Shown piece after piece: positions 18,314-31,070 of a stretch of 64,000 nt of DNA; positions within the stretch are counted from its first letter, which is position 1; each line of letters opens with the position of its first letter. The DNA lies in assembly GCF_037201975.1 (NCBI RefSeq), contig NZ_CP147520.1:992001-1056000 (forward strand), in the 5' to 3' direction. The notes beneath the pieces were generated by a model. It was not told the DNA's origin and did not search any database. It saw only the letters and a list, made by a program, of their open reading frames with translations. The position numbers and the translations under genes were made by a program. The stretch is from Streptomyces sp. TG1A-60 (GTDB lineage Bacteria > Actinomycetota > Actinomycetes > Streptomycetales > Streptomycetaceae).

Positions 18314-18550
18314 CGCGTCGCCGCACCCCCGCCCTCGATGCCGCGTGTCGGTGGCGGTCCACCACGCTCATGCCCCTCGGCACGGGTCCCGCGCTGCTGC
18401 TCCTGGCCGCCGTGGCCGCGCTCGGTGCGCCGCTCGCCGTGCGAATGCCCCGACCCGCCCGTCCCGCGAGGGATGGAACGCGATCAGTACGGAACGATGA
18501 AGGCAAGGATGAACGCGAGCCGAAACCCGGGCAACCGGAGGAGAACCACC

Positions 18551-19777
18551 ATGGAACGACTGCGCCAAGAGGTCGAGCCGCGCGAGGCCGGCCTCGACCC
18601 GAAGACCCTGGCCCGACTGGAGGAGTACCTCGCCCTCCAGGTCGACGAGGGCCGACTGCCCGGCTATCTGCTGTCCCTCGCCCGCGGCGGCCGTGTCGCC
18701 CGTCTCGCGACGTACGGACAGCGTGACCGCGAGGCCGGACTCCCGGTGGAGACGGACACGTTGTGGCGGGTCTACTCCATGACGAAACCCGTCACGTCGG
18801 TCGCCGCACTGATACTGGTCGAGGAGGGACGGCTGTCGCTCACGGACCCGGTCTCCCGCTACCTCCCGGAGTTCGCCGAGCCGCGCGTGTACGAGTCCGG
18901 GGAGGGCGCCGGGACCCGGACCCGCCCGGCCGAGCAGCCGATCCTCGTCCGTCACCTGATGACCCACACCTCCGGCCTGACCTTCGGCTTCTACTACGAC
19001 CACCCCGTCGACGCGCTCTACCGCGACGCGGGTCTGGAGACCTCCGTCCGGCCGGGCGCCGACCTGGCACAGACGTGCGCCCAGTACGCGGGCCTTCCCC
19101 TGCAGTTCGAGCCGGGTTCTCAGTGGAACTACTCGGTCGCCACCAATGTCCTCGGGCGGATCATCGAGGTGGTGTCGGGGCAGGCCCTCGACCGGTTCTT
19201 CGCCGAGAGGATCCTCGGCCCGCTCGGGATGACGGACGCCGGCTTCCAGGTCACGCCCGAACAGACGGACCGGCTGGCCGAGTTGTACGGCGAGCAGGAG
19301 GACGGCTCGATCGCGCCCGTCCCCGGCCTGCCCCTGCGCGGCCGTCCGCGCTTCCTGTCCGGCAGCGGTGGCATGGTCGCCACCGCCCGGGACTACCACC
19401 GCTTCACCGAGTTCCTGCGCCGCCGCGGCGAACTCGACGGCGTACGGCTCCTGTCGCCCGCGTCCGTCGACACGATGGCCACCAACCAGCTGCCCTCAGG
19501 CGCCGACATCCACACCCACGGCAGCCCCTTCCACCGGCAGCCCGGCAACGTGGGCGTCGGCTTCGGCCTCGGCGTCTCCGTGGTGATCGACCCCGACGTC
19601 ACCCAATGCCCCTCCTCCCTGGGAACGTTCGGCTGGACCGGCGCCGCCACCACGATCTTCTGGGTCGACCCGCGCCGCGACCTCACGGTCCAGTTCATGA
19701 CCCAGGTACGGCGACGGTCGTCCTTCTCCGTCTATCCGGAGCTGAAGCGACTGGTGCACGAGGCCGTCGTAGGCTGA
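18551..19777 (+). CDS. Serine hydrolase of the beta-lactamase/PBP class C fold
   Basis: A 408-residue protein from ATG 18551, which follows GGAGGAG at ideal spacing; the longer open frame upstream is not needed. SMTKPVTS holds the SxxK nucleophile pair, NYSVATNVLG the tyrosine of the second motif, and FGWTGAATT the third (K/H-T-G-like) motif. There is no signal peptide, so it acts inside the cell, as an esterase or lactamase/aminopeptidase-like enzyme rather than a wall enzyme. It ends 22 bases from the convergent saccharopine reductase gene. Confidence 0.87.
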   Translation: MERLRQEVEPREAGLDPKTLARLEEYLALQVDEGRLPGYLLSLARGGRVARLATYGQRDREAGLPVETDTLWRVYSMTKPVTSVAALILVEEGRLSLTDPVSRYLPEFAEPRVYESGEGAGTRTRPAEQPILVRHLMTHTSGLTFGFYYDHPVDALYRDAGLETSVRPGADLAQTCAQYAGLPLQFEPGSQWNYSVATNVLGRIIEVVSGQALDRFFAERILGPLGMTDAGFQVTPEQTDRLAELYGEQEDGSIAPVPGLPLRGRPRFLSGSGGMVATARDYHRFTEFLRRRGELDGVRLLSPASVDTMATNQLPSGADIHTHGSPFHRQPGNVGVGFGLGVSVVIDPDVTQCPSSLGTFGWTGAATTIFWVDPRRDLTVQFMTQVRRRSSFSVYPELKRLVHEAVVG

Positions 19778-19799: not shown

Positions 19800-20951
19800 T
19801 CAGTCGATCCGCAGACCGAACTCCACACCGTCCTCGGCGAGTTCGCGGAGCCACGCCTCCGACCGTTCCCCCGTCTCCGCCGCCCGGCTCAGCCCCGCCG
19901 GCAGCGAACCGTCGAGGATGTGGCCGACGCCGAGGGCCAGGGGGCGGGACACCAGGCGGGCCATGGCGCTCTCCTCGGGCGTGCCGGTCAGGTCGAGGAG
20001 GTAGCGGCCGGACCAGTGGCCGCCGGAATCGGTGTGGACGGCGAGGGAGACGGCGAGGACGACGCGGTCCCGGTCGGCCTCGGTGGTCGGGTAGCGGGCT
20101 GCCAGCTCGCGGGCCAGCGCGGCGACGCGCTGGTCGTCGTCGCGTTCGAGTTCCGCGAAGACGGGTGCCCAGGCGGTCAGCCAGCCGTCGAGGCGGAGGG
20201 TGCCGCGGACGAAGGTCTGCGGTTTCCAGGCTCGCGGGAGGCCGTACTGGGCCACGAAGGGGACGCTGTCCCGGTTGGGGTAGGCCTCGAAGGTCTCGCC
20301 GTCGATGACGAGGGGGCGGGTGGCCGTCCAGGGGCGGCCGACCGTCGTCTCGGCGCCGTCCTCGATGTAACGGGCCGGTGCGCGCAGAGCGTTGAGCACT
20401 CCGGCCGGTGCCCAGCTGAAGCGGTACCTGAACTCGTTGGGGACCGCCGGGACGCCGCCGCAGTACGAGGTGAGGCGGTATGAGGCGGCGGTCTCCGCTC
20501 CGATCGCCTCACTCGCCCGGGCGATCAGGCTGTGCGCGAAGAGATGGTCGATGCCCGGGTCCAGGCCGGTCTCGGTGAGGACGGTGACACCCGCCGCCCC
20601 GGCCGCCGGTACCAGCTCCAGGACCGCTTCCGAGACATAGCTGGAGCAGGCGAAGTGGGCCCGCGCCCCGACACACGCCCCGAGCAGCGGGGCATGGTCC
20701 GGTGCCGGAAGCATCGAGACCACCACGTCTCCCGGGGCCAGCTCGGCGACGAGCGCCGAGGGCGTGTACGCGCGGGGCTCGGCACGGCCCGTCAGGCCCA
20801 GTGCGGCCAGGGCCCGCTCGGCGCGCTCCTCGGTGCGGTGCCACAGCCGGACGCGGGCGGCGGTGTCGCACAGCGCCGCCAGACCGCTGCCCGTGGACAG
20901 GCCGGCACCGACCCAGTGGACGGTGCCGCTCGCGGGGACCACTTCAGTCAT
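19800..20951 (-). CDS. Saccharopine dehydrogenase/reductase family (glutamate-forming type)
   Basis: A 383-residue protein with an N-terminal NAD(P) fold (TVHWVGAGLSTGSGLAAL, DVVVSMLPAPDHAPLL), the SSYVSEAVLEL and ETGLDPGIDHLFAH segments, and CGGVPAVPNEFRYRFSW, all characteristic of LYS9-type saccharopine dehydrogenases. The enzyme would split saccharopine to glutamate and alpha-aminoadipate semialdehyde, or act on a related adduct. It follows a LYS1-like gene by 7 bases on the same strand, so the pair could catalyse the complete saccharopine route of lysine breakdown. Both lie beside the GTP-cyclohydrolase cluster, which may or may not use them. Confidence 0.85.
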   Translation of the reverse strand: MTEVVPASGTVHWVGAGLSTGSGLAALCDTAARVRLWHRTEERAERALAALGLTGRAEPRAYTPSALVAELAPGDVVVSMLPAPDHAPLLGACVGARAHFACSSYVSEAVLELVPAAGAAGVTVLTETGLDPGIDHLFAHSLIARASEAIGAETAASYRLTSYCGGVPAVPNEFRYRFSWAPAGVLNALRAPARYIEDGAETTVGRPWTATRPLVIDGETFEAYPNRDSVPFVAQYGLPRAWKPQTFVRGTLRLDGWLTAWAPVFAELERDDDQRVAALARELAARYPTTEADRDRVVLAVSLAVHTDSGGHWSGRYLLDLTGTPEESAMARLVSRPLALGVGHILDGSLPAGLSRAAETGERSEAWLRELAEDGVEFGLRID

Positions 20952-20958
20952 CGGACAA

Positions 20959-21999
20959 CTACCTTTCCGTGACGCCGAGTACGTCGCTCACCTGACGGAA
21001 CCGGTCCAGGCAGCGGCCCCACGCCCCGCCCGTCCCGAAGTCCAGCAGCTGCGGCAGCAGCGCGGCCGAGAAGTCGGTGCTCGCCTCACGGGGCAGCAGC
21101 GAGGGGAGGTTGTCGATGGCGATGAGGTCGAGCGGGGGATGTTCGCGCAGCCGCCGAACGGGGCGGTCCCATTCCGTGGTCGTGTCGTAGAAGGGCAGGA
21201 CGTTCATGGGTGAGCCGACGTCGACGGTGACGTCGGAGACCGTCCTGAGCCGGCGGTCCGGTCCGTCGAGGTCCTTGTCCGTCAGGAAGGGCGGGACGGG
21301 GGTGGTCGTCAGGACGGTGTTGACCATCAACTCGTGGGCGAGCAGGGCCGGTCGGTCCAGGTCGCGGGTCTCGGCCAGGTCCCAGCAGGTCGGCTCGACG
21401 CCGGCCTCGCCGAGCGCCGCGCGCGCACCCCGGCCGCTGCGCCCGAGGGCGCCGATGACCAGGGCGGTCACGTCACCGGTGGACGCGCGGAGCCGGGCCT
21501 CCATCGCCTCCTTCGAGGTGGGCTGGAGCGGTGCCTCCAGGGCACCCCGGTGGTGGAGTACGGCGAGGGCCGCGCCCAGGTAACCGGCCCAGAAGCCGAA
21601 GGCGGCGAGCCTGCGGCCCTGGTCGTCCACCAGATACTCCAGGTCGAGCAGCGCACCGCCCCCGGCCGTGAACCTGCGGAGCAGGGCCTCGGCGCCGGGC
21701 TGCCCCTTGTAGGCGTGACCGAAGAAGACATGGCGATGGGTCAATTCGGCTGGCTGGTCGGGGAGTTCCTTGAGGCCGACGATCACCGCGTGCGGCGGTG
21801 CCGACACCCATGAGCCGGGGGCGGCGATCTGACACCCTGCCTCCTCGTACTCCTCGGCGGGGAAGATCCGCTGCGGGGAGTCCTCGACGGTGATCCTCGC
21901 CCCGCTCTCGACGAGCCGCCGTGCGTCGGACGGCACGATCGGGGTACGGCGTTCGGTGGTACGGGTCTCGTGGCGGAGCCACGAGTGGAGATCGTTCAT
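20959..21999 (-). CDS. Saccharopine dehydrogenase, lysine-forming type (AlaDH/PNT fold)
   Basis: A 346-residue protein. The N-terminus (WLRHETRTTERRTPIVPSDA, SGARITVEDSPQRIFPAEEY) is the alanine dehydrogenase/transhydrogenase N-terminal domain used by LYS1-type enzymes. VIVGLKELPD and HRHVFFGHAYKGQPG follow, and ALVIGALGRSGRGAR is the NAD-binding loop. In LYS1 enzymes this links lysine and 2-oxoglutarate through saccharopine. The 223 bases upstream of it hold the hairpin that ends the ribA-like gene, so the two saccharopine genes probably have their own promoter there. Confidence 0.85.
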   Translation of the reverse strand: MNDLHSWLRHETRTTERRTPIVPSDARRLVESGARITVEDSPQRIFPAEEYEEAGCQIAAPGSWVSAPPHAVIVGLKELPDQPAELTHRHVFFGHAYKGQPGAEALLRRFTAGGGALLDLEYLVDDQGRRLAAFGFWAGYLGAALAVLHHRGALEAPLQPTSKEAMEARLRASTGDVTALVIGALGRSGRGARAALGEAGVEPTCWDLAETRDLDRPALLAHELMVNTVLTTTPVPPFLTDKDLDGPDRRLRTVSDVTVDVGSPMNVLPFYDTTTEWDRPVRRLREHPPLDLIAIDNLPSLLPREASTDFSAALLPQLLDFGTGGAWGRCLDRFRQVSDVLGVTER

Positions 22000-22080
22000 A
22001 CGAGGTTGGCCTCCGGGCGCAGGGAGCGGCCGTGAACCGGTCGACGCTCAGCGGGCTGATGTCGACGAAGGGTACGCGCC

Positions 22081-22149
22081 CCTCTCGGTGTGCCGGCCGG
22101 AAGTCCTCGTACTGGACGTACTCGGACTTCCGGCCGGTGCGGCGAGAGG
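22081..22149 (-). terminator. Large hairpin behind the ribA-like gene
   Basis: A perfect 14-bp inverted repeat (CCGGCCGGAAGTCC at 22093-22106 and its complement at 22124-22137), enclosed by a second 7-bp pair (CCTCTCG and CGAGAGG) after short mismatched arms. It starts about 75 bases behind the ribA-like stop, where a terminator is expected. Its 17-base loop contains a further GTAC pair, more structure than a simple terminator needs. Confidence 0.6.
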
Positions 22150-22222
22150 GCGTGCCTGGCGTCGCGACGGGGCGAACGTCGCCTGCCGCGGCCCTGGACG
22201 GCCGCCGCGCGAGCCCCGGCGC

Positions 22223-22882
22223 TCAGGACGAGCGGACCACCGCGTCCAGATGCGGCAGGTAGTGGTCGAGCCGCTCGCGCTTGGTGCGCAGGTACGTGAT
22301 GTTGTCCTCGCACGGCGTGATCAGCAGGGGCACCTGCTCGGAGACCTTGATGCCGTGGCGCAGCAGCGCCTCCCGCTTGCGCGGGTTGTTCGACATCAGC
22401 CGGACCGACCGGACGCCGAGGTCGTGCAGCATCTCGGCCGCCACCCGGTAGTCGCGGGCGTCCACGGGCAGGCCGAGGGCGAGGTTCGCCTCGACCGTGT
22501 CCAGGCCCTCCGCCTGGAGCTTCATCGCCTGCAGCTTGGCGAGCAGGCCGATGCCGCGCCCCTCGTGGCCGCGCAGGTAGACGAGGATGCCGCGACCCTC
22601 CGCGACTATGGCCCGCAGCGCGCTGTCGAGCTGCTCGCCGCACTCGCAGTGCTGGGAACCGAACGCGTCGCCGGTCAGGCACTCCGAGTGCAGCCGGATG
22701 AGAATTTCCTCACCGCCGCTGATGTCGCCGTACACCAGTGCCACTTGTTCCTCGCCGCGGTCCTGGTCGAGATAGCCTACGGCCTCGAAGTCGCCATAGG
22801 TCGTGGGCAGGGGGGCGTTCACCACGCGTACGGCGCCGGAGGACTGGGCATTCGTGCCGAGTACACCAACATTTTCTGTCAT
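22223..22882 (-). CDS. GTP cyclohydrolase II paralogue with Met120 (FAPy-forming type)
   Basis: A 219-residue stand-alone GCH II. Zinc ligands are Cys68, Cys79 and Cys81 (SECLTGDAFGSQHCECGEQL), and GILVYLRGHEGRGIGLL is the nucleotide-binding segment. The residue equal to Tyr105 of E. coli RibA is Met120 (AKLQAMKLQAEG). In S. coelicolor the paralogue with this same substitution (SCO6655, from memory) stops after ring opening and gives the formamidopyrimidine nucleotide (FAPy) rather than the riboflavin precursor. So this copy is probably not for riboflavin but the entry enzyme of the neighbouring cluster. It diverges from a creatininase-family gene whose archaeal relative ArfB deformylates FAPy. 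Confidence 0.92.
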   Translation of the reverse strand: MTENVGVLGTNAQSSGAVRVVNAPLPTTYGDFEAVGYLDQDRGEEQVALVYGDISGGEEILIRLHSECLTGDAFGSQHCECGEQLDSALRAIVAEGRGILVYLRGHEGRGIGLLAKLQAMKLQAEGLDTVEANLALGLPVDARDYRVAAEMLHDLGVRSVRLMSNNPRKREALLRHGIKVSEQVPLLITPCEDNITYLRTKRERLDHYLPHLDAVVRSS

Positions 22883-22957
22883 GATCTGGTTCCTATCTGG
22901 TAAGCCCTGGCGTCATGGGGAAATGACGGAGCATCAGAAGATGAGAGGCCGTGAAAG

Positions 22958-23744
22958 ATGAGCAGTTCGGGATCCACGTCCGATGCGCGGTCCGGGGGAC
23001 GAGGGCCGCAGCCGACGGTAGCCGGTCTGCTGCCCGCCGACAGCACCGCGGACGTCCGCGCGCGGGGAGGGCGGCGGGCGGCAGGTCGCCGTGCTTCCCG
23101 TGGGCAGCTACGAGCAGCACGGGCCGTATCTGCCGCTGGCCACCGACACGCTCGTGGCCTGCGCGATAGCCCGGGAGATAGCCGCCGCGTACCCGGTGCA
23201 CCTGTTGCCGCCCGTGACCATCGCCTGCTCGCACGAGCACGCGGCCTGGCCGGGCACCGTCAGCATTTCCGCGACGACCCTCCACGCGATGGTCCGTGAC
23301 ATCGCCGCTTCCCTGCGCCGGTCGGGCGTCGAGGCGCTGGTGGTGGTCAACGGACACGGCGGGAACTACGTTCTGGGCAATGCCGTCCAGGAATCCACCG
23401 CGGAGGGACATCGAATGGCGCTTTTCCCGGCCATGGAGGACTGGGACGCCTCGCGCGAACGGGCCGGCGTACAGACCTCGTTGCTCAGTGATATGCATGC
23501 CGGAGAAATAGAGACCTCCATACTTCTGCATTGCCACCCCGAATTGGTCCGGCCCGGTCACGAGACCACCGACTTCCTTGCCGACGACCGCCGTCATCTC
23601 CTCTCCCTCGGTATGTCGGCCTACACCGATTCCGGTGTCATCGGCCGTCCGTCCCTGGCATCCGCCGCGAAGGGGAAGGAGTTGCTGGCGGGGTTCGTCC
23701 ATTCCTTCGGGGCGTACTTCTCGCTGGTCACGTCGGACACCTGA
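22958..23744 (+). pseudogene. Creatininase-family amidohydrolase, apparent frameshift near the N-terminus
   Basis: The body (from 23091) is a typical creatininase fold. VLPVGSYEQHGPYLPLATDT holds the Glu, His and Asp metal ligands, ACSHEHAAWPGTVSISA and VVNGHGGNYV follow, and MHAGEIETSILL carries the second Glu. The start helix that should precede it is in another frame (MSSSGSTSD...TVAGLLPADSTADVRARG from ATG 22958, after GAGAGG). Removing one G in the run 23064-23071 joins them smoothly. In the given sequence only a GTG at 23091 inside the first strand could restart translation. The family includes creatinine amidohydrolase, MftE and the archaeal FAPy deformylase ArfB; the last fits the divergent FAPy-forming enzyme. 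The last 124 bases overlap the end of the convergent membrane-protein gene. Confidence 0.75.
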
Positions 23745-25273
23745 CGACGCGCGCGCAGGGAGCCGTACCAGCGGCCGACGAGGACGAGGACCCCCGGCAG
23801 GCTGGCCACGAAGCTCAGCACCCCGTAGACGACGGCCACGGTCAGCCCCTGGGAGGCGCCCAGTCCTGCGACGCCGAAGGACCACGCGGTGACGCCTTCC
23901 CGGGGGCCCCAGCCGCCGACGTTCAGCGGCAGACTCATGGCTATCAGGGCCAGCAGCGCGAGGGGCAGCACCTGCAGCGGGGTCGCGGCGGACCCGGCGA
24001 CGCGTGCGGCGAGCAGGAACATCGCCACGTATCCGGCGAGCACCGCCAGGGACGAGATCAGCACGGCCGGCCCGCTGTCGCGGTTCAGCAGCGCGCCGCG
24101 CGCCTCGGTGAGGGCGGCCCGGATCCGGCGGCCCCGGCCGCCGTCCGCGTTCGGCCTGCGGCCCCTCCGGAACGCCGCCCGGATCGCCAGCACGCCCGGC
24201 ACGGCGAGCACCGTCACACCCGCCGCGTAGCGGGTCTGCTCCAGCACCGGGGAGGGCAGTACCAGCAGGACCGTTACGCCCACGACGGCCAGCACCAACT
24301 GGCCCGCGGTCCGCTCGATCACCACCGCCCGCACACCGCGCCCCATGTCCCCGGAGCTCTGTCCGTGCCGCACCGCCCGGTGCACATCGCCGAGGACACC
24401 GCCGGGCAGGGCCGCGTTGAGGAACAGCGCGCGGTAGTAGTCCGCGACGGCCGGCCCGAGTGGCAGCCCGATTCCCAGCGCGCGCGTCACCGCGCACCAG
24501 CGCCACGCGCTGAACACCGTGGTCAGCACGCCGATCCCGACTGCCGCCACCAGCGTCCCGCCGTCGATCCGCCGCAGCCCGTCGACGAACACGCCGGTGC
24601 CCGTCCGCCAGAGGACGACGGCCAGGATGACCGTTCCGGCAAGCGTGCCGAAGTGGGTGCGCAGGGCGCGGGTGAACCTGGCGGCGAGGCGGGACCCGCC
24701 GGGGGCCGCCGCCGACGTGCCGCTCGCCGCCGCACCGGCCACGCCTCCGCTCACCCGGGGCGCCGCCGCGTGCGACACCGCGCCGGCCTCGGCACGGTGT
24801 CCGACAGCCGGCTCCGCTGGGGTGTCCGTCCGGACGTCCGGACGGACGCCCGTCGCGGCCGTAGAGGAGTCGAGCGGGTCCGGGGATCCACCGGAAGCCG
24901 CGCCGTAGGTGGGCCTTGCCGGGGCCGTACGGCCGTCGGACACGCCCAGGCATCCGCCGGAAGCGCCGGAAGCCGCGTCCAGGGCCGCCCCCGTGGAGGC
25001 CGTACGGTGGCCCGGCGCGTCCGGAGGGCCGGCGGGAGCCTGGTCCGACGTTGTCCCGCGCGGTCTCGTGCTCGGTACGGCCACGGCGGCCGGGGGCGTC
25101 GCCGACGCGGCGGGGGACAGCGGGCCCGTGGTCGGGGCGGTCGCGCGCATCCGTGCCCGGGGGGCGGACGTGCTCGACTTCACGCGGGCGCGGACTCCCC
25201 GTGAACGTACCCGTACGCGGTGCCCCGTCGGTGATGGATGTGCCTCGACCGCCTCCTCCACCGGCGCCGTCAC
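23621..25273 (-). CDS. Flippase-like membrane protein (lysyl-PG synthase TM domain, UPF0104)
   Basis: About 550 residues if it starts at GTG 25273, which overlaps the methyltransferase stop (GTGA). The first 220 residues are Ala/Pro/Gly-rich and disordered. Then come about eight membrane helices of the YbhN/LPG-synthase integral type (WRWCAVTRALG, FLNAALPGGVLGDVHRAVRHG, GRGVRAVVIERTAGQLVL, and LPLNVGGWGPREGVTAWSF). The family includes lipid flippases and transporters. It may carry a lipid-linked product of the adjacent glycosyltransferase and methyltransferase across the membrane. Its last 124 bases run into the creatininase gene from the other side. A later start such as the Met near 25150 would shorten the disordered region. 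Confidence 0.8.
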   Translation of the reverse strand: MTAPVEEAVEAHPSPTGHRVRVRSRGVRARVKSSTSAPRARMRATAPTTGPLSPAASATPPAAVAVPSTRPRGTTSDQAPAGPPDAPGHRTASTGAALDAASGASGGCLGVSDGRTAPARPTYGAASGGSPDPLDSSTAATGVRPDVRTDTPAEPAVGHRAEAGAVSHAAAPRVSGGVAGAAASGTSAAAPGGSRLAARFTRALRTHFGTLAGTVILAVVLWRTGTGVFVDGLRRIDGGTLVAAVGIGVLTTVFSAWRWCAVTRALGIGLPLGPAVADYYRALFLNAALPGGVLGDVHRAVRHGQSSGDMGRGVRAVVIERTAGQLVLAVVGVTVLLVLPSPVLEQTRYAAGVTVLAVPGVLAIRAAFRRGRRPNADGGRGRRIRAALTEARGALLNRDSGPAVLISSLAVLAGYVAMFLLAARVAGSAATPLQVLPLALLALIAMSLPLNVGGWGPREGVTAWSFGVAGLGASQGLTVAVVYGVLSFVASLPGVLVLVGRWYGSLRARRQVSDVTSEKYAPKEWTNPASNSFPFAADARDGRPMTPESV

Positions 25274-26253
25274 GAGGCTCCGCCCGTCGGCCGGGGCAGG
25301 GCCAGCAGGTCGCTGTGGTGGACGACGGCGTGGAGTTCGCCGGCCGCGTTGGCGCGGAGGCGGTCGCGGAGGTAGACGTCGGCGCGCTCGGTGAGTTCGG
25401 GGCGCTGTGCGCAGGCGGCGCCGACCCAGCCGCGCAGCCACTCCTCGATGAGAGCCGTGTGCCGTCTGTCGAGCTGCCAGGGACTCGGGTGGACGCGGAC
25501 CGTGGCACCCTGCTGGGCGAAGGCCTCGCAGGCCACGGTGATCGCGTCGGGGCCGAGCAGATCGCCGGCGCGCTGGTGGGCGTCGAACGCCTCGGCGATC
25601 TCCGCGTCCATGGGGTGGGCCGGGGCGAGGTCCACTCGGCCCACGACCGAGAGGGTCAGCAGGGCGGGGGCGCCGGCGCCCGCACAGGCCACCGCGAGCG
25701 CCTCGATCTCCTCGCGGGTGAGGACGTCGAGCAGCGCTGACGCGGTGACCAGCGAGGCACCCGACAGGTCGTCCGCCGTCAGCCGCCCGATGTCGCCGCG
25801 CCGCGTGGTGACCGTGACGGGGCTGCCGTCGGCGGCGGCGCGGGGCGCCCGCGCGGTGGCCAGCCGCAGGAGACCGGGGTCCTGGTCGTGCAGCACCCAC
25901 TGCTGGGCGCCGTCCAGCCGGGGCGCGAGCCAGCGGCCCATCGAACCGGTGCCGCAGCCGAGGTCGTGGACGGTCAGCCCGGTGGCCCGCCCCGGCAGGT
26001 TCGCGAGGCGGATCCGCAGCGGGTCGAGCAGGTCCACCGCGCGGGCGTCGGCGTCGGCGCTCTCGCGCAACTCCAGCCACTGCGGGGCGTACTGGTGCCC
26101 CTCCGGCGCCGGCGTGTCGCCCCCGCGCCCCGCCATGCTCAGCGCCGTGCCGGACGCGGAGGCCGCCGCACCGGAGGCGGAGGCCCCGGCCGAGGCCGCC
26201 GCGCCCGAAGCGGTCGCGTCGGCAGCCGTGGCCCTTTCGGCAGAAGTGGTCAT
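25270..26253 (-). CDS. SAM-dependent class I methyltransferase
   Basis: A 327-residue protein whose ATG (26253) overlaps the glycosyltransferase stop by ATGA. After a 45-residue Ala/Ser-rich leader comes a Rossmann methyltransferase. VHDLGCGTGSMGRWLAPRL is the SAM-binding motif I, WVLHDQDPGLL motif II, and ASLVTASALLDVLTREE the post-II region. The acceptor is unknown. Position between a glycosyltransferase and a flippase-like protein, with strict translational coupling, says it works on the same intermediate. The frame stays open far upstream on the same strand, but that part is the shadow of the glycosyltransferase. Confidence 0.87.
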   Translation of the reverse strand: MTTSAERATAADATASGAAASAGASASGAAASASGTALSMAGRGGDTPAPEGHQYAPQWLELRESADADARAVDLLDPLRIRLANLPGRATGLTVHDLGCGTGSMGRWLAPRLDGAQQWVLHDQDPGLLRLATARAPRAAADGSPVTVTTRRGDIGRLTADDLSGASLVTASALLDVLTREEIEALAVACAGAGAPALLTLSVVGRVDLAPAHPMDAEIAEAFDAHQRAGDLLGPDAITVACEAFAQQGATVRVHPSPWQLDRRHTALIEEWLRGWVGAACAQRPELTERADVYLRDRLRANAAGELHAVVHHSDLLALPRPTGGAS

Positions 26254-27473
26254 GCCACCCTCCGAGGTTCTTGCCGCAGTCGGCCCAGTACATGGGCGAG
26301 GCTGCGGGCCGTGGTCGCCCAGCCGTCCAGCGCGGCCCGGCGCCCGCGCGCCGCGGCCTTCAGCCGGCGCCGCACGTCGGCCTCCCCGAACCAGCCGCGC
26401 AGCTCCGCCGCGATGGCCGCGGGGTTCTCCGGCGGGACGAGGATGCCGGGCACCCCGCCGTCGGGGGCGCGGCCGACGGCCTCGGGGACTCCGCCGACGT
26501 CGGTGGCCAGCACGGGGATGCCGCGGGCGAGGGCTTCGGTGACCGCCATGCCGTACGTCTCGGCGTACGAGGTGAGAACCATGAGGTCGGCGGCGGCGTA
26601 ACTCGCGTCGAGTTCCGCGCCCGCCTGCGGTCCCGCCAGGTGGAACCGGTCCTCCAGACCGAACTTCGCGATCAGCGCCCGGATGTGCTCGACGTACTCG
26701 GGCTCCTGGTCGAGGCCGCCCACCAGCACACAGCTCCAGGGCAGTTCGGTGACGGTCGCCAGAGCCTCGACCAGCCGGTGCTGCCCCTTGCGCGGGGTGA
26801 CCGCGGCCACGCACAGCAGCCGGGAGACGCCGTCGGTGCCGGAGGCGAGGGGCGCGATGTCGGCGCCGGGGGCGGCGACGTGGACCCGCTCGGGGGCGAG
26901 CCCGTGATGTGACACGAGTCGCCGGACCGCCCACTCACTGGTCGCGATCACGGCGGACACGCCCCGCAGGGTCGTGCGTTCGTCGGCGTCGAGTTCGGCC
27001 GCGAGGTCGGGCTCCAGGCCCGTCTCGTCGGCGAGCGGCAGGTGCACCAGCACGGCCAGGCAGAGCCGTTGGGCCTCGGGGAGGATGACCTCCGGGACAC
27101 CGCAGGCGACCAGACCGTCGAGCAGGACGACCGTGCCGTCGGGGAACTCACGCAGCGTTCGGGCGAGTTCGGCGCGTGCCGCCTGACTCGGGCGCGGCCA
27201 GCTGCCGTCGATCGCGTGCTTGTGCACCTGCCAGCCGAAGCCAGGCAGATCGAGGCAGATCCGGCGGTCGTAGGCGTTGCCGCCGCTGGGCCGGGCCAGG
27301 TCGTCGACGCCGCCCGGCATCACGAAGTGCGCGGAGCGGAGCGACATGGGGACGATCGCGGTGTGCTTCAGTGCCGCGTTCTGCACGGGCACATAGCCGA
27401 GCCTGACTTGCTCTTCCCCGTCCGCCGGGGCGGCGGTGCCGATGACCGTCCGGTCGATGGTCACGTCGGTCAC
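26250..27473 (-). CDS. Glycosyltransferase, GT4-like GT-B fold
   Basis: A 407-residue cytoplasmic protein starting at GTG 27473, which overlaps the PTPS-like stop (GTGA). The C-terminal half is a clear GT-B nucleotide-sugar domain: [41 protein letters not shown] (the EX7E motif) and [14 protein letters not shown]. The N-terminal half has [19 protein letters not shown] and [15 protein letters not shown]. It transfers a sugar with retention from a nucleotide donor. The acceptor is unknown, possibly the pyrimidine- or pterin-like product of the ribA/creatininase/PTPS set. It has no membrane segment. Confidence 0.9.
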
Positions 27474-27868
27474 AGGGCACGCTCGTAACTCGCCCAGGCG
27501 ATGTGCGACTCGTGCAGGGTGACCGTGATGCCGGCGATCCCCTTGGCGTTCTCCCCGAGGGCGCCCTTGTGGATCCTCTCGGCCAGACGGTCGGCGACCA
27601 CCTTGGCCAGGAACTCCGTCGAGGTGTTGGTGTGGGCGAAGTCCGGCTCGTTGTCGAGGTTGCGGTAGTTCAACTCGCTCACCACCGCTCCGAGCTCCTG
27701 CGTGGCCAGCCCGATGTCTACGACGATGTTGTCGTCGTCCAGCTCGGCGCGCCGGAAGGTGGCGTCCACGAGGAACGTGGCGCCGTGCAGGCGCTGCGCG
27801 GGTCCGAAGACCTCCCCGCGGAAGCTGTGGGCGATCATGATGTGATCGCGGACGGTGATGCTGAACAA
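27470..27868 (-). CDS. 6-pyruvoyltetrahydropterin synthase/QueD homologue with altered active site
   Basis: A 132-residue T-fold protein. The start is TTG 27868, seven bases after GGAGGG. The family pattern is present ([21 protein letters not shown], then [28 protein letters not shown] and [14 protein letters not shown]). Two expected features are missing. The catalytic Cys ahead of the HGH motif is absent (GPAQRLHG), and HGH has become HGA, removing one zinc ligand. A similar S. coelicolor homologue (SCO6650) has been crystallised, as I recall, in connection with the same cluster. It is therefore unlikely to make pyruvoyl-tetrahydropterin or carboxy-deazaguanine precursor and may use the fold on a FAPy-derived substrate. 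It leads a four-gene coupled run. Confidence 0.88.
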
Positions 27869-28046
27869 CGGACGACCCTCCAGTGCGGTACGTCTGCCCC
27901 GGGTCGGGGCATGCCGTGTAGTACGGCTGCTCCCTACCCGTTGTTCAGCCGAGTTTGCCGGTTTCTTCGGAGGTCAGCGTTCCGTTCGGACAGTTCATCC
28001 GGGCGGTTCAGAAACGGGTGGGGCGACTGCGCGGACTCTCCGTGAG

Positions 28047-29027
28047 TCACGCGGCGTCGTAGCGCACCCTGTGGCACATCCCCGGCAGCTCTCCGCTCGC
28101 GAGCTTCGGCAGGATGTCCGGGAGGTCCTCGAAGGCGCACTCTCCGGTGACGAGCGCGTCGAAGCGGGCGTCGGCGAGGAGTTCGAGGGCGAGCGCCAGC
28201 CGGTCGGCGTAGGTGCGGCCGGGGCGCCCGGCCGGGGAGACGGTGCCGACCTGGCTGCTGCGGACGGTGAGCCGGCGTGAGTGGAAGGCCTCGCCGAGCG
28301 GCAGGGCGACGCGGCGGTCGCCGTACCAGCTCAGCTCGATCACCGTGCCCTCGGCGGCGAGGAGTTCGAGTGACCGGACGAGGCCCTGCTCGTTGGCGCT
28401 GGCGTGCACGACGAGGTCGCACTCCCCCCGCGCGTCGCCGGGCAGCGCGAAGTCGGCGCCGAGCGCGCGGGCGATGTCGGCGCGCGCAGGGTCGGCGTCG
28501 ACGAGTTGGACCCGCACCCCCGGGTAGCGGGCCAGCAGGGCGGCGACCGAACAGCCGACCATGCCGCCGCCCACGACGGCGATCCGGTCGCCGATGAGGG
28601 GAGCCGCGTCCCACAGGGCGTTGACGGCGGTCTCCACCGTCCCGGCGAGTACGGCACGCTCGGCGGGCACGGAGTCCGGTACGACGGTGACGGCGCTCAC
28701 CGGAACGACGTAGCGGCTCTGGTGCGGATACAGGCAGAAGACGGTTCGCCCGACGAGTGCGTCCGGCCCCTCCTCCACCCGACCGACGCTGAGATAGCCA
28801 TACTTCACGGGAGCGGGGAACTCGCCCTCCTGGAAGGGAGCGCGCATCGTCGCGTACTGGTTCTCGGGCACGTGACCTCGGAACACGAGGGTCTCGGTTC
28901 CCCGGCTGACCCCTGAGTACAGGGCCCGTACGAGCACCTCGTCCTCGGCGGGCGCGGTGAGGGTCTCCGCACGGATCTCCCCCTGTCCGGGAGAGCGAAG
29001 CCAGAAGGCGTCGGCTGTCGGTTTCAT
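28047..29027 (-). CDS. Zinc-type alcohol dehydrogenase-like oxidoreductase (MDR)
   Basis: A 326-residue MDR protein from ATG 29027 after GGAGA. It shows VLVRALYSGVSRGTE and APVKYGYLSVGRVEEG in the GroES-like half, and IAVVGGGMVGCSVAALLA as the NAD(P)-binding loop. The usual zinc-ligand set (GHE) is not obvious, as in the bacteriochlorophyllide-type dehydrogenases, so it may be metal-free. It lies 178 bases upstream of the PTPS-like gene on the same strand and faces the CDP-alcohol phosphatidyltransferase. It probably supplies an oxidation or reduction in the same pathway; the substrate is unknown. Confidence 0.85.
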   Translation of the reverse strand: MKPTADAFWLRSPGQGEIRAETLTAPAEDEVLVRALYSGVSRGTETLVFRGHVPENQYATMRAPFQEGEFPAPVKYGYLSVGRVEEGPDALVGRTVFCLYPHQSRYVVPVSAVTVVPDSVPAERAVLAGTVETAVNALWDAAPLIGDRIAVVGGGMVGCSVAALLARYPGVRVQLVDADPARADIARALGADFALPGDARGECDLVVHASANEQGLVRSLELLAAEGTVIELSWYGDRRVALPLGEAFHSRRLTVRSSQVGTVSPAGRPGRTYADRLALALELLADARFDALVTGECAFEDLPDILPKLASGELPGMCHRVRYDAA

Positions 29028-29135
29028 GTGCGTCTCCGTGAACGGTCGAGCGGTGCGCCACGTACGCAGCGGTGGGAGTCGCGGACACGGTACGCGGCGG
29101 TGATCCACTTGTCACACACGTTCGGAAGGTATGCG

Positions 29136-29948
29136 GTGGCCCTGATCAACACGTACGACGGCCGGCTGTTGCTCTCGGAGACGACGGTGGGCGCGGGCGC
29201 CCAGGTGCTGCTCCTCGCCTTCCTGGGCACGGCGATCGGACTGGGCCCGGCGGGCTGGCTGACCGGGCTGGCCTTCGGGCTCGCCACCTGGGCCGTCCTC
29301 AACCGCGCCCTCCTGCGCACCCGGACGCGCACCTTCGGCCCCGCCAACCGCGTCACCCTGGGCCGCGCGATACTAGTCGGCGCCGTCACCGCCCTGGTCG
29401 CCGACTCCTTCCAGAGCTCGCCGCCCGTCTCGCTCTTCGTCGGCCTGACCGCCGTGGCCCTGATCCTCGACGGTGTCGACGGCAAGGTGGCCCGGCGCAC
29501 GAACACCTCGACGGCGCTGGGCGCCCGCTTCGACATGGAGGTCGACGCGTTCCTGATCCTCGTGCTGAGCGTGTACGTCTCGATGTCGCTCGGCCCGTGG
29601 GTGCTGCTGATCGGTCTCATGCGGTACGTCTTCGTCGCCGCCGCCAAGGTCATGCCGTGGCTGAACGGCTCCCTCCCGCACAGCATGGGCCGCAAGACGG
29701 TCGCCGCGGTCCAGGGCGTCTTCCTGCTGGCCGCCGCCTCCGGCCTGCTGCCGTACGCGGCGGGATTCAGCCTGGTCGCCCTTGCGCTGGGCTCGCTGCT
29801 CTGGTCGTTCGGGCGGGACATCACCTGGCTGTTCCGCCACCGGGAGGGCCGGGAGAAGCCGACGGCCACGGCGGCCGTGGCAGAGACGGTGACCGTGACC
29901 GTGGAGGCCCCCGCCGATCGCCGGGCGGCCGAGCTCGTCACGAGCTGA
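29136..29948 (+). CDS. CDP-alcohol phosphatidyltransferase family protein
   Basis: I choose GTG 29136 (VALINTYDGRLLL), six bases after GGAAGG, giving 270 residues; the open frame begins at 29028. The family signature DGxxARx8Gx3Dx3D is intact in ILDGVDGKVARRTNTSTALG followed by ARFDMEVDAF. About six membrane helices surround it. The C-terminus is a charged tail (AVAETVTVTVEAPAD). Such enzymes swap CMP on a CDP-activated alcohol for a second alcohol to make a phospholipid or phosphodiester. Placed opposite the dehydrogenase and near a flippase-like protein, it suggests that the cluster's product becomes lipid-linked. Confidence 0.88.
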   Translation: MALINTYDGRLLLSETTVGAGAQVLLLAFLGTAIGLGPAGWLTGLAFGLATWAVLNRALLRTRTRTFGPANRVTLGRAILVGAVTALVADSFQSSPPVSLFVGLTAVALILDGVDGKVARRTNTSTALGARFDMEVDAFLILVLSVYVSMSLGPWVLLIGLMRYVFVAAAKVMPWLNGSLPHSMGRKTVAAVQGVFLLAAASGLLPYAAGFSLVALALGSLLWSFGRDITWLFRHREGREKPTATAAVAETVTVTVEAPADRRAAELVTS

Positions 29949-30035
29949 CCGGCGGGCTCACCGCGAGACGCTCTCGTGCCGGGCCCGGGTCAGGTGCCCC
30001 CGCACGAAGGGAGCGGGGTAGGGGAATCGCTTCGG

Positions 30036-31070
30036 CTACCCGGCGACGGCCCCCGGCGGCATGTTGTACGGCGTCACCACCTGGATCGCCGACGGGATGA
30101 ACGGGCTCTCCTCGGGGAGGGCGTGGTGGGCGCGCATGATGGTCTGGCAGGCGCGGCGCACGTCCTGGCGGAGGTCGTGGTGGAGCACGGCGGAGAGCCG
30201 GTGTTCGCGCAGGAGTCTGGTGTTGTCGTGGTCGAGGTCGTGGGCGACGAAGACATGCGGCTGTCGGCCGAGCGCGGCGAATGCGTCGAGCGTCGCGGTG
30301 TTGCCGCCGCCGATCGAGTAGACGGCGCCGATGCCCGGCTCCCTCCTCAGCGCGTCGAGGACGAGGTCCCGCTGGGTGGCGTCGAGTCCGTCGCTGTCGG
30401 TGACCTCGACGAGTGCCCGCCTCGGCTCGACGGCCCGCATCACGCTCCGGAACCCCATCTCGCGCTCCTCCTCGTTGCGGTAGAAGCTGCGGCTGATCGT
30501 CACCAGTACGGCACCGGGCCGGTCGCCGAGCCACTGCCGGAGCAGATACGCGGCGGTCGCCCCGGCGGCCCGGTTGTCTATGCCGACGTACGCTCCGCGC
30601 GGGCTGCCGGGCAGGTCCGTCACGAAGGTGACCACGGGGACCCCGGCCGCGACCAGCCGTTCGACGGCGGCGGTGACCTCCGGGACGTCCGGCGCCTTGA
30701 GGATCACGCCCTGCGAGCCGCGCCGACCGATCCGGTCGAGCACCCTCACCATCTCCGAGGCGGACCCGGTCTCCCGGAAGTGGAAGCGGGACCGCACCAC
30801 GGCCGGGTGAAGCGACGGCAGCTCGGCCTCCAACGCCTCCCGGACCGCCGTGGAGAACCGGTCCGGGGTCTGCATCACGATGTCGACCATGAACGTACGG
30901 CCTCCGATGCGCACCTGCGTCCGCTGCCGGTCCAGGTCCTTGACGGCCTGGTGGACCTCGCGGGCGGTGCTCTCGCGCACCCCGCCCCGGTCGTTGAGGA
31001 CCCGGTCGACGGTGGCCTGGCTCAGCCCGGCCTGACGGGCTATCTCACGGATCGTGTAGGGGTGTGCCAT
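30036..31070 (-). CDS. LacI-family transcriptional regulator
   Basis: A 344-residue regulator. The DNA-binding headpiece is at the start (YTIREIARQAGLSQATVDRVLNDRGGVRESTAREV). A periplasmic-binding-protein-like sugar domain follows (VDIVMQTPDRFSTAVREAL, GVILKAPDVPEVTAAVERLV, GIDNRAAGATAAYLL, IGAVYSIGGGNTATLDAF). It reads leftwards while the inositol-dehydrogenase-like gene lies to the right, so it probably controls that gene and the now broken SDR gene between them. The sugar could be inositol or a related polyol. The open frame continues far upstream but the family sequence starts at ATG 31070. Confidence 0.9.
   Translation of the reverse strand: MAHPYTIREIARQAGLSQATVDRVLNDRGGVRESTAREVHQAVKDLDRQRTQVRIGGRTFMVDIVMQTPDRFSTAVREALEAELPSLHPAVVRSRFHFRETGSASEMVRVLDRIGRRGSQGVILKAPDVPEVTAAVERLVAAGVPVVTFVTDLPGSPRGAYVGIDNRAAGATAAYLLRQWLGDRPGAVLVTISRSFYRNEEEREMGFRSVMRAVEPRRALVEVTDSDGLDATQRDLVLDALRREPGIGAVYSIGGGNTATLDAFAALGRQPHVFVAHDLDHDNTRLLREHRLSAVLHHDLRQDVRRACQTIMRAHHALPEESPFIPSAIQVVTPYNMPPGAVAG

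Follow-up and report, generated by a model that had tools for sequence, protein, structure and literature searches.

A conserved gene cluster in Streptomyces that may attach a GTP-derived head group to phospholipid

A cluster of eight genes, encoding a GTP cyclohydrolase II (GCH II), a creatininase, a flippase, a methyltransferase (MT), a GT4 glycosyltransferase (GT), a PTPS-fold protein, an MDR dehydrogenase and a CDP-alcohol phosphatidyltransferase (CDPPT), occupies 22223-29948 of the window, the 64,000-nucleotide stretch of the genome of Streptomyces sp. TG1A-60 analysed here (Table 1). Every gene named in the original prediction is present, and the prediction was also correct that four of them are translationally coupled, as three 4-bp stop/start overlaps (GTGA, ATGA and GTGA) join the PTPS, GT, MT and flippase genes. 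The GT and MT matches share one frame, with no stop between them, in 16 loci. The flippase-like protein has a long, low-complexity N-terminus, and its gene is syntenic in relatives. The creatininase gene lies on the opposite strand to the flippase gene, with which it converges (the 3' ends share 124 bp), and diverges from the GCH II gene. A promoter and terminator scan of 22000-30100 found none.

Table 1. Genes of the cluster and its neighbours, in window coordinates.
Feature	Coordinates	Strand	Remarks
Serine hydrolase	18338-19777		near GCH II
Two saccharopine-dehydrogenase-family genes	19800-20951, 20959-21999		adjoin GCH II
GTP cyclohydrolase II	22223-22882	-	PF00925, 224 bits
Creatininase-family amidohydrolase	22958-23744 (conserved body 23022-23744)	+	PF02633, 217.8 bits
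Flippase-like multi-pass membrane protein (LPG_synthase_TM)	23621-25273	-	PF03706, 110.9 bits
SAM-dependent methyltransferase	25270-26253	-	PF13649, 33 bits
GT4 glycosyltransferase	26250-27473	-	PF00534, 104 bits
PTPS-fold protein	27470-27868	-	PF01242, 80 bits; SCO6650 orthologue
MDR dehydrogenase, BchC-like	28047-29027	-	conserved region after internal ATG
CDP-alcohol phosphatidyltransferase (CDPPT), divergent	29028-29948	+	PF01066, 58.8 bits

The interval originally proposed, 19800-29948, holds for this core but also takes in the saccharopine-dehydrogenase-like pair, an optional Streptomyces neighbour. The window and five of the 13 further own-genus clusters fetched (L040, L160, L161, L165 and L167) have the pair adjoining GCH II, but not one of the loci L060-L139, a set of 80 made up of the best of 578 confirmed matches, has it; it was therefore rejected as core. 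In the window, the serine hydrolase gene lies close to GCH II, as it does in nine of the same 13 clusters (L040, L041, L044 and L160-L165) and in L132. It was excluded because it is absent from the fuller clusters L042 and L043, but it may be an accessory gene.

The GCH II scores 235.6 bits against TIGR00505, above the cut-off of 205.85, and its switch residue is not Tyr but Met120 (Tyr105 in E. coli numbering), the FAPy type. Met120 is also present in the GCH II of all 13 other own-genus clusters fetched, and Tyr occupies this position in both of the remaining GCH IIs that the genome encodes. In SCO6655, which uses GTP, Met120 reportedly makes the reaction stop at FAPy, a finding attributed to Spoonamore et al. 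in 2006. That the window enzyme likewise stops at FAPy, as had been proposed, is what its Met120 predicts, and as far as sequence tells it does not make the normal riboflavin intermediate. The proposal does not extend to the pathway at large: among the 47 loci whose linked GCH II can be read at the switch position, 39 have Tyr (as do 41 of 50 aligned rows, window included and two loci counted twice), and FAPy as a universal starting point was rejected. Cys54, Cys65, Cys67, Asp126 and Arg128 (E. coli numbering) are kept in all 50 rows. SCO6655 is listed as GTP cyclohydrolase II (PMC2853524), and together with SCO6650 (PDB 3d7j) it anchors the matching S. coelicolor set named in the original prediction, around SCO6648-SCO6655.

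The creatininase far exceeds the PF02633 cut-off of 31.3, and all 40 aligned sequences, that of the window among them, keep the metal ligands E31, H33, D42, H112 and E164. Its start is likely the ATG at 22958; in the window genome the N-terminal stretch read from this ATG and the conserved body lie in different frames, the change sitting in a G-rich stretch at about 23060-23085, and in L040, L044, L128 and L132 the two share one frame. The protein falls below the cut-offs of both the FAPy deformylase ArfB (NF033501; 40.6 against 180) and the mycofactocin protein MftE (TIGR03964; 142.6 against 172). A role as FAPy deformylase fits Actinobacteria, but in the other phyla the enzyme accompanies a Tyr-type GCH II (22 of 29 loci outside Actinobacteria), with which a FAPy deformylase should be unneeded, and a universal role of this kind is therefore unsupported.

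Enzymes of the PTPS/QueD type carry three zinc histidines (HGH) and a catalytic Asp-His dyad, and a conserved glutamate of the fold grips the 2-amino-4-oxo-pyrimidine edge. The window protein has HGA in place of HGH and lacks the dyad. Of the 100 rows, window included, that can be read at the third zinc His, 85 carry Ala there and 15 have HGH. The dyad is missing in 99 of 101 rows; the two exceptions, L129 and L134, have neither MDR nor GT beside the PTPS gene. The glutamate is retained in all 101 rows. The protein scores 35.2 against the QueD equivalog, below the cut-off of 89.25, and does not reach the 6PTHBS cut-off; profile A1 matches the orthologue structure 3d7j at 1.1e-57. These residues bear out the earlier expectation that the normal catalytic residues are absent, and on their evidence the protein presumably cannot carry out normal PTPS chemistry. 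The MDR gene lies in a GTG-initiated ORF that extends to 29108, and conservation begins only after the internal ATG. Its AF2 model (pLDDT 94) has the MDR fold, with polyol dehydrogenases and TarJ among the fold matches, and when compared with the catalytic zinc ligand motif of MDR enzymes it apparently lacks the ligands. Neither protein yields a firm chemical prediction.

To assess conservation, the PTPS-fold protein alone was used to fetch 80 loci from named genomes. This set, the best of 578 confirmed matches, includes many Halomonas relatives, and its gene labels are tblastn matches at 1e-5. Within these best 80 of 578, which span six phyla, MDR lies directly upstream of PTPS in 77 loci, and 77 have GT4 no more than 9 kb away; also recurrent are the RibD_C reductase (59), CDPPT (47), GCH II (39), flippase (38) and creatininase (34). 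Gene order and strand are kept between phyla, and the grouping exceeds chance; the joint conservation named beforehand as a check on the original prediction thus holds. FolB is adjacent in Rubrobacter-like loci. OpgH lies near the PTPS gene in 22 of the best 80 of 578 loci, all phyla counted, and in none of the actinobacterial ones; with no association with the phosphotransferase described below (p = 0.3, 47 genomes), OpgG/OpgH was dropped as a defining part.

Two further enzymes, missed by the original prediction, strengthen the lipid-linked reading beyond its "perhaps", and the product it envisaged (nucleoside-, pyrimidine- or pterin-derived, glycosylated, methylated) is partly supported. 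The RibD_C reductase is unlinked to the cluster in the window genome, where the copy adjoining the second GCH II at 4.38 Mb is the best candidate for the pathway reductase; this unlinked type also occurs in cluster-free genomes (two of seven within the genus and 59 of 101 overall). RibD_C proteins pass the Pfam cut-off in L053, L049, L055 and L074, and fall below that of ArfC (TIGR01508, 186.45) in L053 (140.7), L074 (112.8), L043 (104.8) and L144 (121.5); against TIGR00227 (150.15) L053 reaches 185.4, and L074, L043 and L144 score 140.8, 126.2 and 111. Both RibD_C and PTPS are under most specific NCBIfam cut-offs. The second enzyme is a membrane phosphotransferase, also unlinked in the window genome, present in 17 of 18 PTPS-positive and none of 83 PTPS-negative Streptomycetaceae (Fisher tests of co-occurrence are uncorrected for shared ancestry). 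Its single sequence had no match in the PDB, and the best profile match, a Listeria lipoteichoic acid primase (E 0.3), lay among chance matches; the folds were therefore compared, and they proved to be of the LtaS/EptA type. The LtaS/EptA nucleophile is Thr; here there is no Thr nucleophile, and Ser304 is invariant in 22 of 22 rows.

The CDPPT of the window retains the catalytic motif of CDP-alcohol phosphatidyltransferases, D..DG..AR........G...D...D (DGVDGKVARRTNTSTALGARFDMEVD). The search for the phosphotransferase across phyla scored at most three candidates per genome, and 47 genomes drawn from the best 80 of 578 loci entered the search with profile A2, a profile that itself draws on 22 of these loci. 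In this set, CDPPT is missing from the fetched locus in 19 of 47 genomes and the phosphotransferase from 22 of 47, and the lipid steps of the pathway proposed below are therefore not universal. L081, L087, L117 and L130 have CDPPT and no phosphotransferase, L069 shows the reverse, and in G030 the 20 kb fetched contain PTPS and MDR as the sole cluster genes, and the phosphotransferase is absent.

From the observed linkage, co-occurrence, family membership, residues and folds we infer a pathway, including its every substrate, step order and product. With about even confidence, we regard the cluster as the version found in Streptomyces of an old, widely shared pathway that carries a GTP-derived head group onto a phospholipid and to the cell surface. 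In Streptomyces, GCH II would open GTP to FAPy and the creatininase would deformylate it; in other bacteria, a GCH II of the Tyr type would give the diaminopyrimidine directly. The RibD_C reductase could then turn the ribosyl into a ribityl chain, and MDR with the PTPS-fold protein might remodel side chain and ring, giving an aminopyrimidine or pterin head group that GT4 and the methyltransferase would decorate. CDPPT would couple this head group to diacylglycerol phosphate, the flippase-like protein would carry the lipid over the membrane, and the unlinked LtaS/EptA-like enzyme would hand the phospho-head group to a glycan at the surface, a part that periplasmic glucans may play in Proteobacteria. 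More tentatively, and on balance doubtfully, the system may represent a class of membrane lipids and surface decorations that has so far gone unrecognised in several phyla, with a glycosylated, methylated GTP-derived heterocycle as phospholipid head group that is passed to envelope glycans. A pterin formed independently of GTP cyclohydrolase I is an improbable identity for the heterocycle; in that case, RibD_C would reduce the ribosyl C1', MDR would oxidise the adjacent C2' hydroxyl, and the resulting ketone would close on the 5-amino group within the PTPS-fold protein.

The same genes could instead make a secondary metabolite of the nucleoside or pterin type (an antibiotic or signal) that is soluble and exported, with the CDPPT and flippase families aiding only resistance or export. 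The patchy presence of PTPS (18 of 101 Streptomycetaceae) would suit such a product, as would the finding that SCO6655 and SCO2687 of S. coelicolor are among 15 genes whose expression is anticorrelated with predicted flux, most of them upregulated in stationary phase and possibly antibiotic genes (PMC2853524). However, the spread over several phyla in near-fixed order, the intact CDPPT motif and the close co-occurrence with the LtaS/EptA-like enzyme make this unlikely. Another candidate product is a pterin cofactor or glycoside in soluble form, made independently of GTP cyclohydrolase I with accessory lipid genes. It would agree with the FolB adjacent in Rubrobacter-like loci and with loci of Roseibium, Azorhizobium, Amorphus and a Rubrobacter relative, where MDR-PTPS-GT-MT, whether or not RibD_C and GCH II are present, occur without a locus CDPPT or a genome phosphotransferase. 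It would leave the coupling between CDPPT and phosphotransferase unexplained, however, and OpgH beside the cluster in several of these loci points to the envelope, so that we consider it a long shot.

Alternatively, the product could be a surface glycolipid or glycan substituent whose head group is no GTP-derived heterocycle, the riboflavin- and pterin-like enzymes having been recruited to other chemistry. The missing PTPS dyad, the polyol dehydrogenases and TarJ among the MDR fold matches, and RibD_C and PTPS scores under several equivalog cut-offs would be in keeping with this. Yet GCH II, RibD_C, PTPS and, in Rubrobacter-like loci, FolB must then all have switched, whereas the GCH II residues listed above and the PTPS glutamate are kept in every row and SCO6655 uses GTP; such wholesale recruitment seems distinctly unlikely.

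The phospholipid head-group reading gives an orphan Streptomyces cluster a definite pathway that can be put to the test, with some ten genes common to several phyla. Its PTPS-like protein was previously studied singly, as SCO6650 (PDB 3d7j), and its GCH II presumably likewise, as SCO6655. Open-licence PMC literature yielded no account of a pathway or product for the locus tags or the gene combination. If true, the pathway would add a new head group to bacterial lipids, explain why these Streptomyces retain a third, FAPy-type GCH II, give a role to a PTPS family without catalytic residues and a last step to the unlinked phosphotransferase, and, through OpgH near PTPS (22 of the best 80 of 578 loci), tie GTP/pterin chemistry to the envelope glucans of Proteobacteria.

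Among known systems, the archaeal-type early riboflavin pathway, in which ArfA/GCH III takes GTP to FAPy, the creatininase-family enzyme ArfB deformylates it and ArfC acts as a RibD_C-type reductase, has three reaction types also represented here, whose counterparts are the Met-type GCH II, the creatininase-family amidohydrolase and the RibD_C reductase. The GCH II is presumably not homologous to ArfA, and the creatininase stays far below the ArfB cut-off. In the cluster, GT, MT, CDPPT and flippase follow, and neither lumazine synthase nor riboflavin synthase is among the recurrent neighbours that were annotated. The PTPS-fold protein belongs to the same family as PTPS and QueD, PF01242, but differs in its third zinc ligand, its lost dyad and its scores below their cut-offs. 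The MDR finds its best NCBIfam match in BchC (3-hydroxyethyl bacteriochlorophyllide dehydrogenase), at 54.6 bits far under the cut-off of 291. Finally, the phosphoglycerol transferases LtaS, LtaP and GacH and the phosphoethanolamine transferases EptA and MCR are the closest known counterparts of the proposed last step, including the substitution of periplasmic glucans from phospholipids; the cluster-associated enzyme differs from them in its invariant Ser and in its tie to a cluster that would build its own head group and encodes a CDPPT.

The cluster is real and conserved, and its linkage, co-occurrence, protein families, residues and folds are matters of direct observation. With the PTPS-fold protein as the sole bait for the conservation searches, matches were found in 18 of 101 Streptomycetaceae genomes and in 25 of 396 genomes across the phylum (1e-12), and a scan of named genomes gave at least 578 confirmed matches, of which the best 80 were kept as loci. 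By title, these best 80 of at least 578 come from Actinomycetota, Pseudomonadota, Gemmatimonadota, Acidobacteriota, Myxococcota (Polyangium) and Chloroflexota. Among them, the genes lying no further than 9 kb from PTPS encode an MDR dehydrogenase (77), a glycosyltransferase (GT; 77), a methyltransferase (MT; 63), a riboflavin-type reductase (RibD_C; 59), a CDP-alcohol phosphatidyltransferase (CDPPT; 47), GTP cyclohydrolase II (GCH II; 39), a flippase-like protein (38), a creatininase (34), an FkbM methyltransferase (28), the periplasmic-glucan protein OpgH (22) and an LtaS/EptA-like membrane phosphotransferase (22). The genes stay together elsewhere, as the original prediction supposed. In the best 80 of at least 578 loci, MDR lies directly upstream of PTPS in 77 (median gap 44 bp) and GT directly downstream in 72, always on the same strand, and this single strand and single spacing are not expected by chance. 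The GT and MT matches share one frame with no intervening stop in 16 loci, as do those of CDPPT and the phosphotransferase in three (L068, L092 and L118; L numbers denote loci fetched from genomes). Two reduced loci, L048 and L050, hold MDR and PTPS and little else of the cluster.

The window comes from a genome of one 7.83 Mb contig, which the closest PTPS relatives place in Streptomyces, and its eight cluster genes span 22223-29948. The four genes thought to be translationally coupled, PTPS-GT-MT-flippase, are indeed joined by 4-bp stop/start overlaps. The MDR start is probably the ATG at 29027, placed there because sequence conservation begins at that point, and MDR would thus abut the divergent CDPPT ORF. 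RibD_C sits between the flippase and creatininase genes in L042, L043 and L128 and is absent from the window cluster, where these two genes meet and their 3' ends overlap by 124 bp (23621-23744), as if RibD_C had been lost at this junction. The N-terminal stretch and the body of the window creatininase lie in different frames, a real feature or a sequencing error, and in a single frame in L040, L044, L128 and L132. Two adjacent saccharopine-dehydrogenase/AlaDH-N family genes (19800-21999) adjoin the cluster, and the pair recurs in 5 of 13 other own-genus clusters (L040, L160, L161, L165, L167); a serine hydrolase gene (18338-19777) lies near GCH II, likewise in most own-genus clusters (L040, L041, L044, L160-L165) and in L132.

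Genes of the cluster in the window, in cluster order
Gene	Order	Coordinates	Strand
GCH II	first	from 22223	-
Creatininase	second	22958-23744	+
Flippase-like LPG_synthase_TM protein	third		-
Methyltransferase	fourth		-
GT4 glycosyltransferase	fifth		-
PTPS-fold protein	sixth		-
MDR dehydrogenase	seventh		-
CDPPT	eighth, divergent	up to 29948	+

All 100 readable rows of the PTPS-fold protein keep the first two zinc histidines; at the third position 85 have Ala and 15 have His. The Asp-His dyad is absent from 99 of 101 rows, in agreement with the predicted lack of the normal catalytic residues; the two exceptions, the Chloroflexi loci L129 and L134, keep all three zinc histidines, have no adjoining MDR or GT, and are a useful internal control. 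The remaining 13 three-histidine rows come from Rubrobacter-like, Sphaerobacter and Thermomicrobiales loci. In the Rubrobacter-like variant (L052-L059, L061, L062) the PTPS is of the HGH type, and RibD_C-MDR-PTPS-GT-MT is flanked, in divergent orientation, by FolB and a PlsC-like acyltransferase. A glutamate near the C-terminus is kept in 101 of 101 rows; in the PTPS fold this glutamate anchors the 2-amino-4-oxo-pyrimidine edge. PDB entry 3d7j is the Streptomyces protein SCO6650, for which the authors of the structure reportedly described the absence of both zinc and triad, along with a pterin-like pocket.

The original prediction had the pathway start from a GCH II that stops at formamidopyrimidine (FAPy). 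Residue 120 of the window GCH II is Met, aligned with E. coli Tyr105, and the two other GCH IIs of the genome (6.93 Mb, 4.38 Mb) have Tyr there; SCO6655 is said, from the work of Spoonamore and colleagues in 2006, to carry Met120 and to make FAPy, the Met120Tyr change bringing back the normal product. Among 50 GCH II rows, which take in the window and count L068 and L110 twice each, the switch residue is Tyr in 41, Met in 8 and His in 1; by locus the figures are 39, 7 and 1, the Met-type loci being Streptomyces and the His-type one Nocardiopsis, and Met recurs in 8 of 8 further own-genus clusters. Since Tyr prevails in other loci and Met is confined to those of Streptomyces, the FAPy-type enzyme looks like a local variation on a cluster whose GCH II is elsewhere the normal one. 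The main idea of the original prediction stands, but its FAPy start is too narrow. The Halomonas-type cluster GCH II (L131:14379-15479) is extended at its N-terminus by some 165 residues that match no Pfam family (PRK08815-like, below cut-off).

The creatininase had been tied to FAPy through the archaeal deformylase ArfB. In actinobacterial loci the creatininase (CREATININASE) accompanies Met/His GCH II in 8 of 8 cases, in 8 of 8 further own-genus clusters and in the window, but lies beside a Tyr-type enzyme in 0 of 10 (L051 and L090 being on short contigs), as would be expected of a FAPy deformylase. Residues E31, H33, D42, H112 and E164 are kept in all 40 sequences aligned, the window's included. 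However, the creatininase is present in 22 of 29 Tyr-type loci outside Actinobacteria, and it scores under both the ArfB and the MftE cut-offs. On balance, we lean slightly towards a FAPy deformylase in Streptomyces.

Two parts of the pathway, RibD_C and the phosphotransferase, lay out of sight of the original prediction. The RibD_C check covered all 14 PTPS-positive own-genus genomes (window, L040-L044, L160-L167). Twelve of the clusters are without RibD_C, and all 12 genomes have an unlinked type (1e-40); the two with RibD_C inside the cluster (L042 and L043, panel genomes G076 and G080) lack the unlinked type. Of the 7 PTPS-negative genomes of the genus, however, 2 carry the unlinked type, as do 59 of 101 genomes overall, and it is therefore not reserved for this pathway. 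At 4.38 Mb in the own genome, RibD_C (55% identity to that of the L049 cluster) adjoins the second, Tyr-type GCH II (L144:6840-8979), which resembles the cluster enzymes of L049 and L057; we take this pair to be, perhaps, the SCO2687 locus. In one study, SCO6655 (r = -0.61) and SCO2687 (r = -0.52) are among 15 listed S. coelicolor genes whose expression is anticorrelated with predicted flux, and most of the 15, these two unnamed in that statement, rise in stationary phase in phosphate-exhausting culture (PMC2853524).

The guess of a lipid-linked product was better than the original prediction could know. The window CDPPT has the full catalytic motif, and the phosphotransferase tracks CDPPT. 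In 47 genomes examined from the best 80 of at least 578 loci, 24 have both, 4 CDPPT alone, 1 the phosphotransferase alone and 18 neither; 12 of the 25 phosphotransferases lie outside the fetched locus. Among Streptomycetaceae, 17 of the 18 PTPS-positive genomes carry the phosphotransferase and none of the 83 PTPS-negative ones does (Fisher 2e-18, uncorrected for ancestry); the lone exception is G030, where MDR and PTPS are the sole cluster genes in the fetched 20 kb. The phosphotransferase adjoins CDPPT in L042, L043 and L049 and is unlinked to the cluster in 15 of the 17 carriers, as in the own genome (open frame 1678845-1680902 on the contig). Phylum-wide, it occurs in 8 of 396 genomes, all 8 PTPS-positive, and is absent from 17 PTPS-positive ones, mostly of the Rubrobacter-like family. 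Two copies lie adjacent on opposite strands at G040:C8:169569-172807, and two are also present in G033, G048, G083, G089 and G095. Near the PTPS gene in the best 80 of at least 578 loci, OpgH occurs in 22 and OpgG in 6, from Halomonas, Roseibium, Azorhizobium, Amorphus, a Xanthobacteraceae MAG and Gemmatimonadota among others; the three OpgH tested pass the NCBIfam MdoH cut-off, and OpgH has no association with the phosphotransferase (p = 0.3). OpgH lies beside the cluster in the Proteobacteria/Gemmatimonadota loci L073, L078, L088, L110, L120, L133 and L137, with OpgG too in Halomonas and Gemmatimonadota.

A literature search found no description of the pathway, and its substrates, step order and product are what we infer. 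Read together, the GTP/pterin-type enzymes, sugar and methyl transferases, phosphatidyl transferase, flippase-like protein and head-group transferase fit one logic, in which GTP would be converted to an unusual head group, decorated with sugar and methyl groups, placed on a phospholipid and flipped, and the phospho-head group then passed from lipid to glycan. The boldest reading would have RibD_C reduce C1' and MDR oxidise C2', giving a ketone that would close to a dihydropterin. As RibD_C is linked more often than GCH II (59 against 39 of the best 80 of at least 578 loci), our view is that the ordinary diaminopyrimidine, present in any riboflavin-making cell, serves as the committed precursor.
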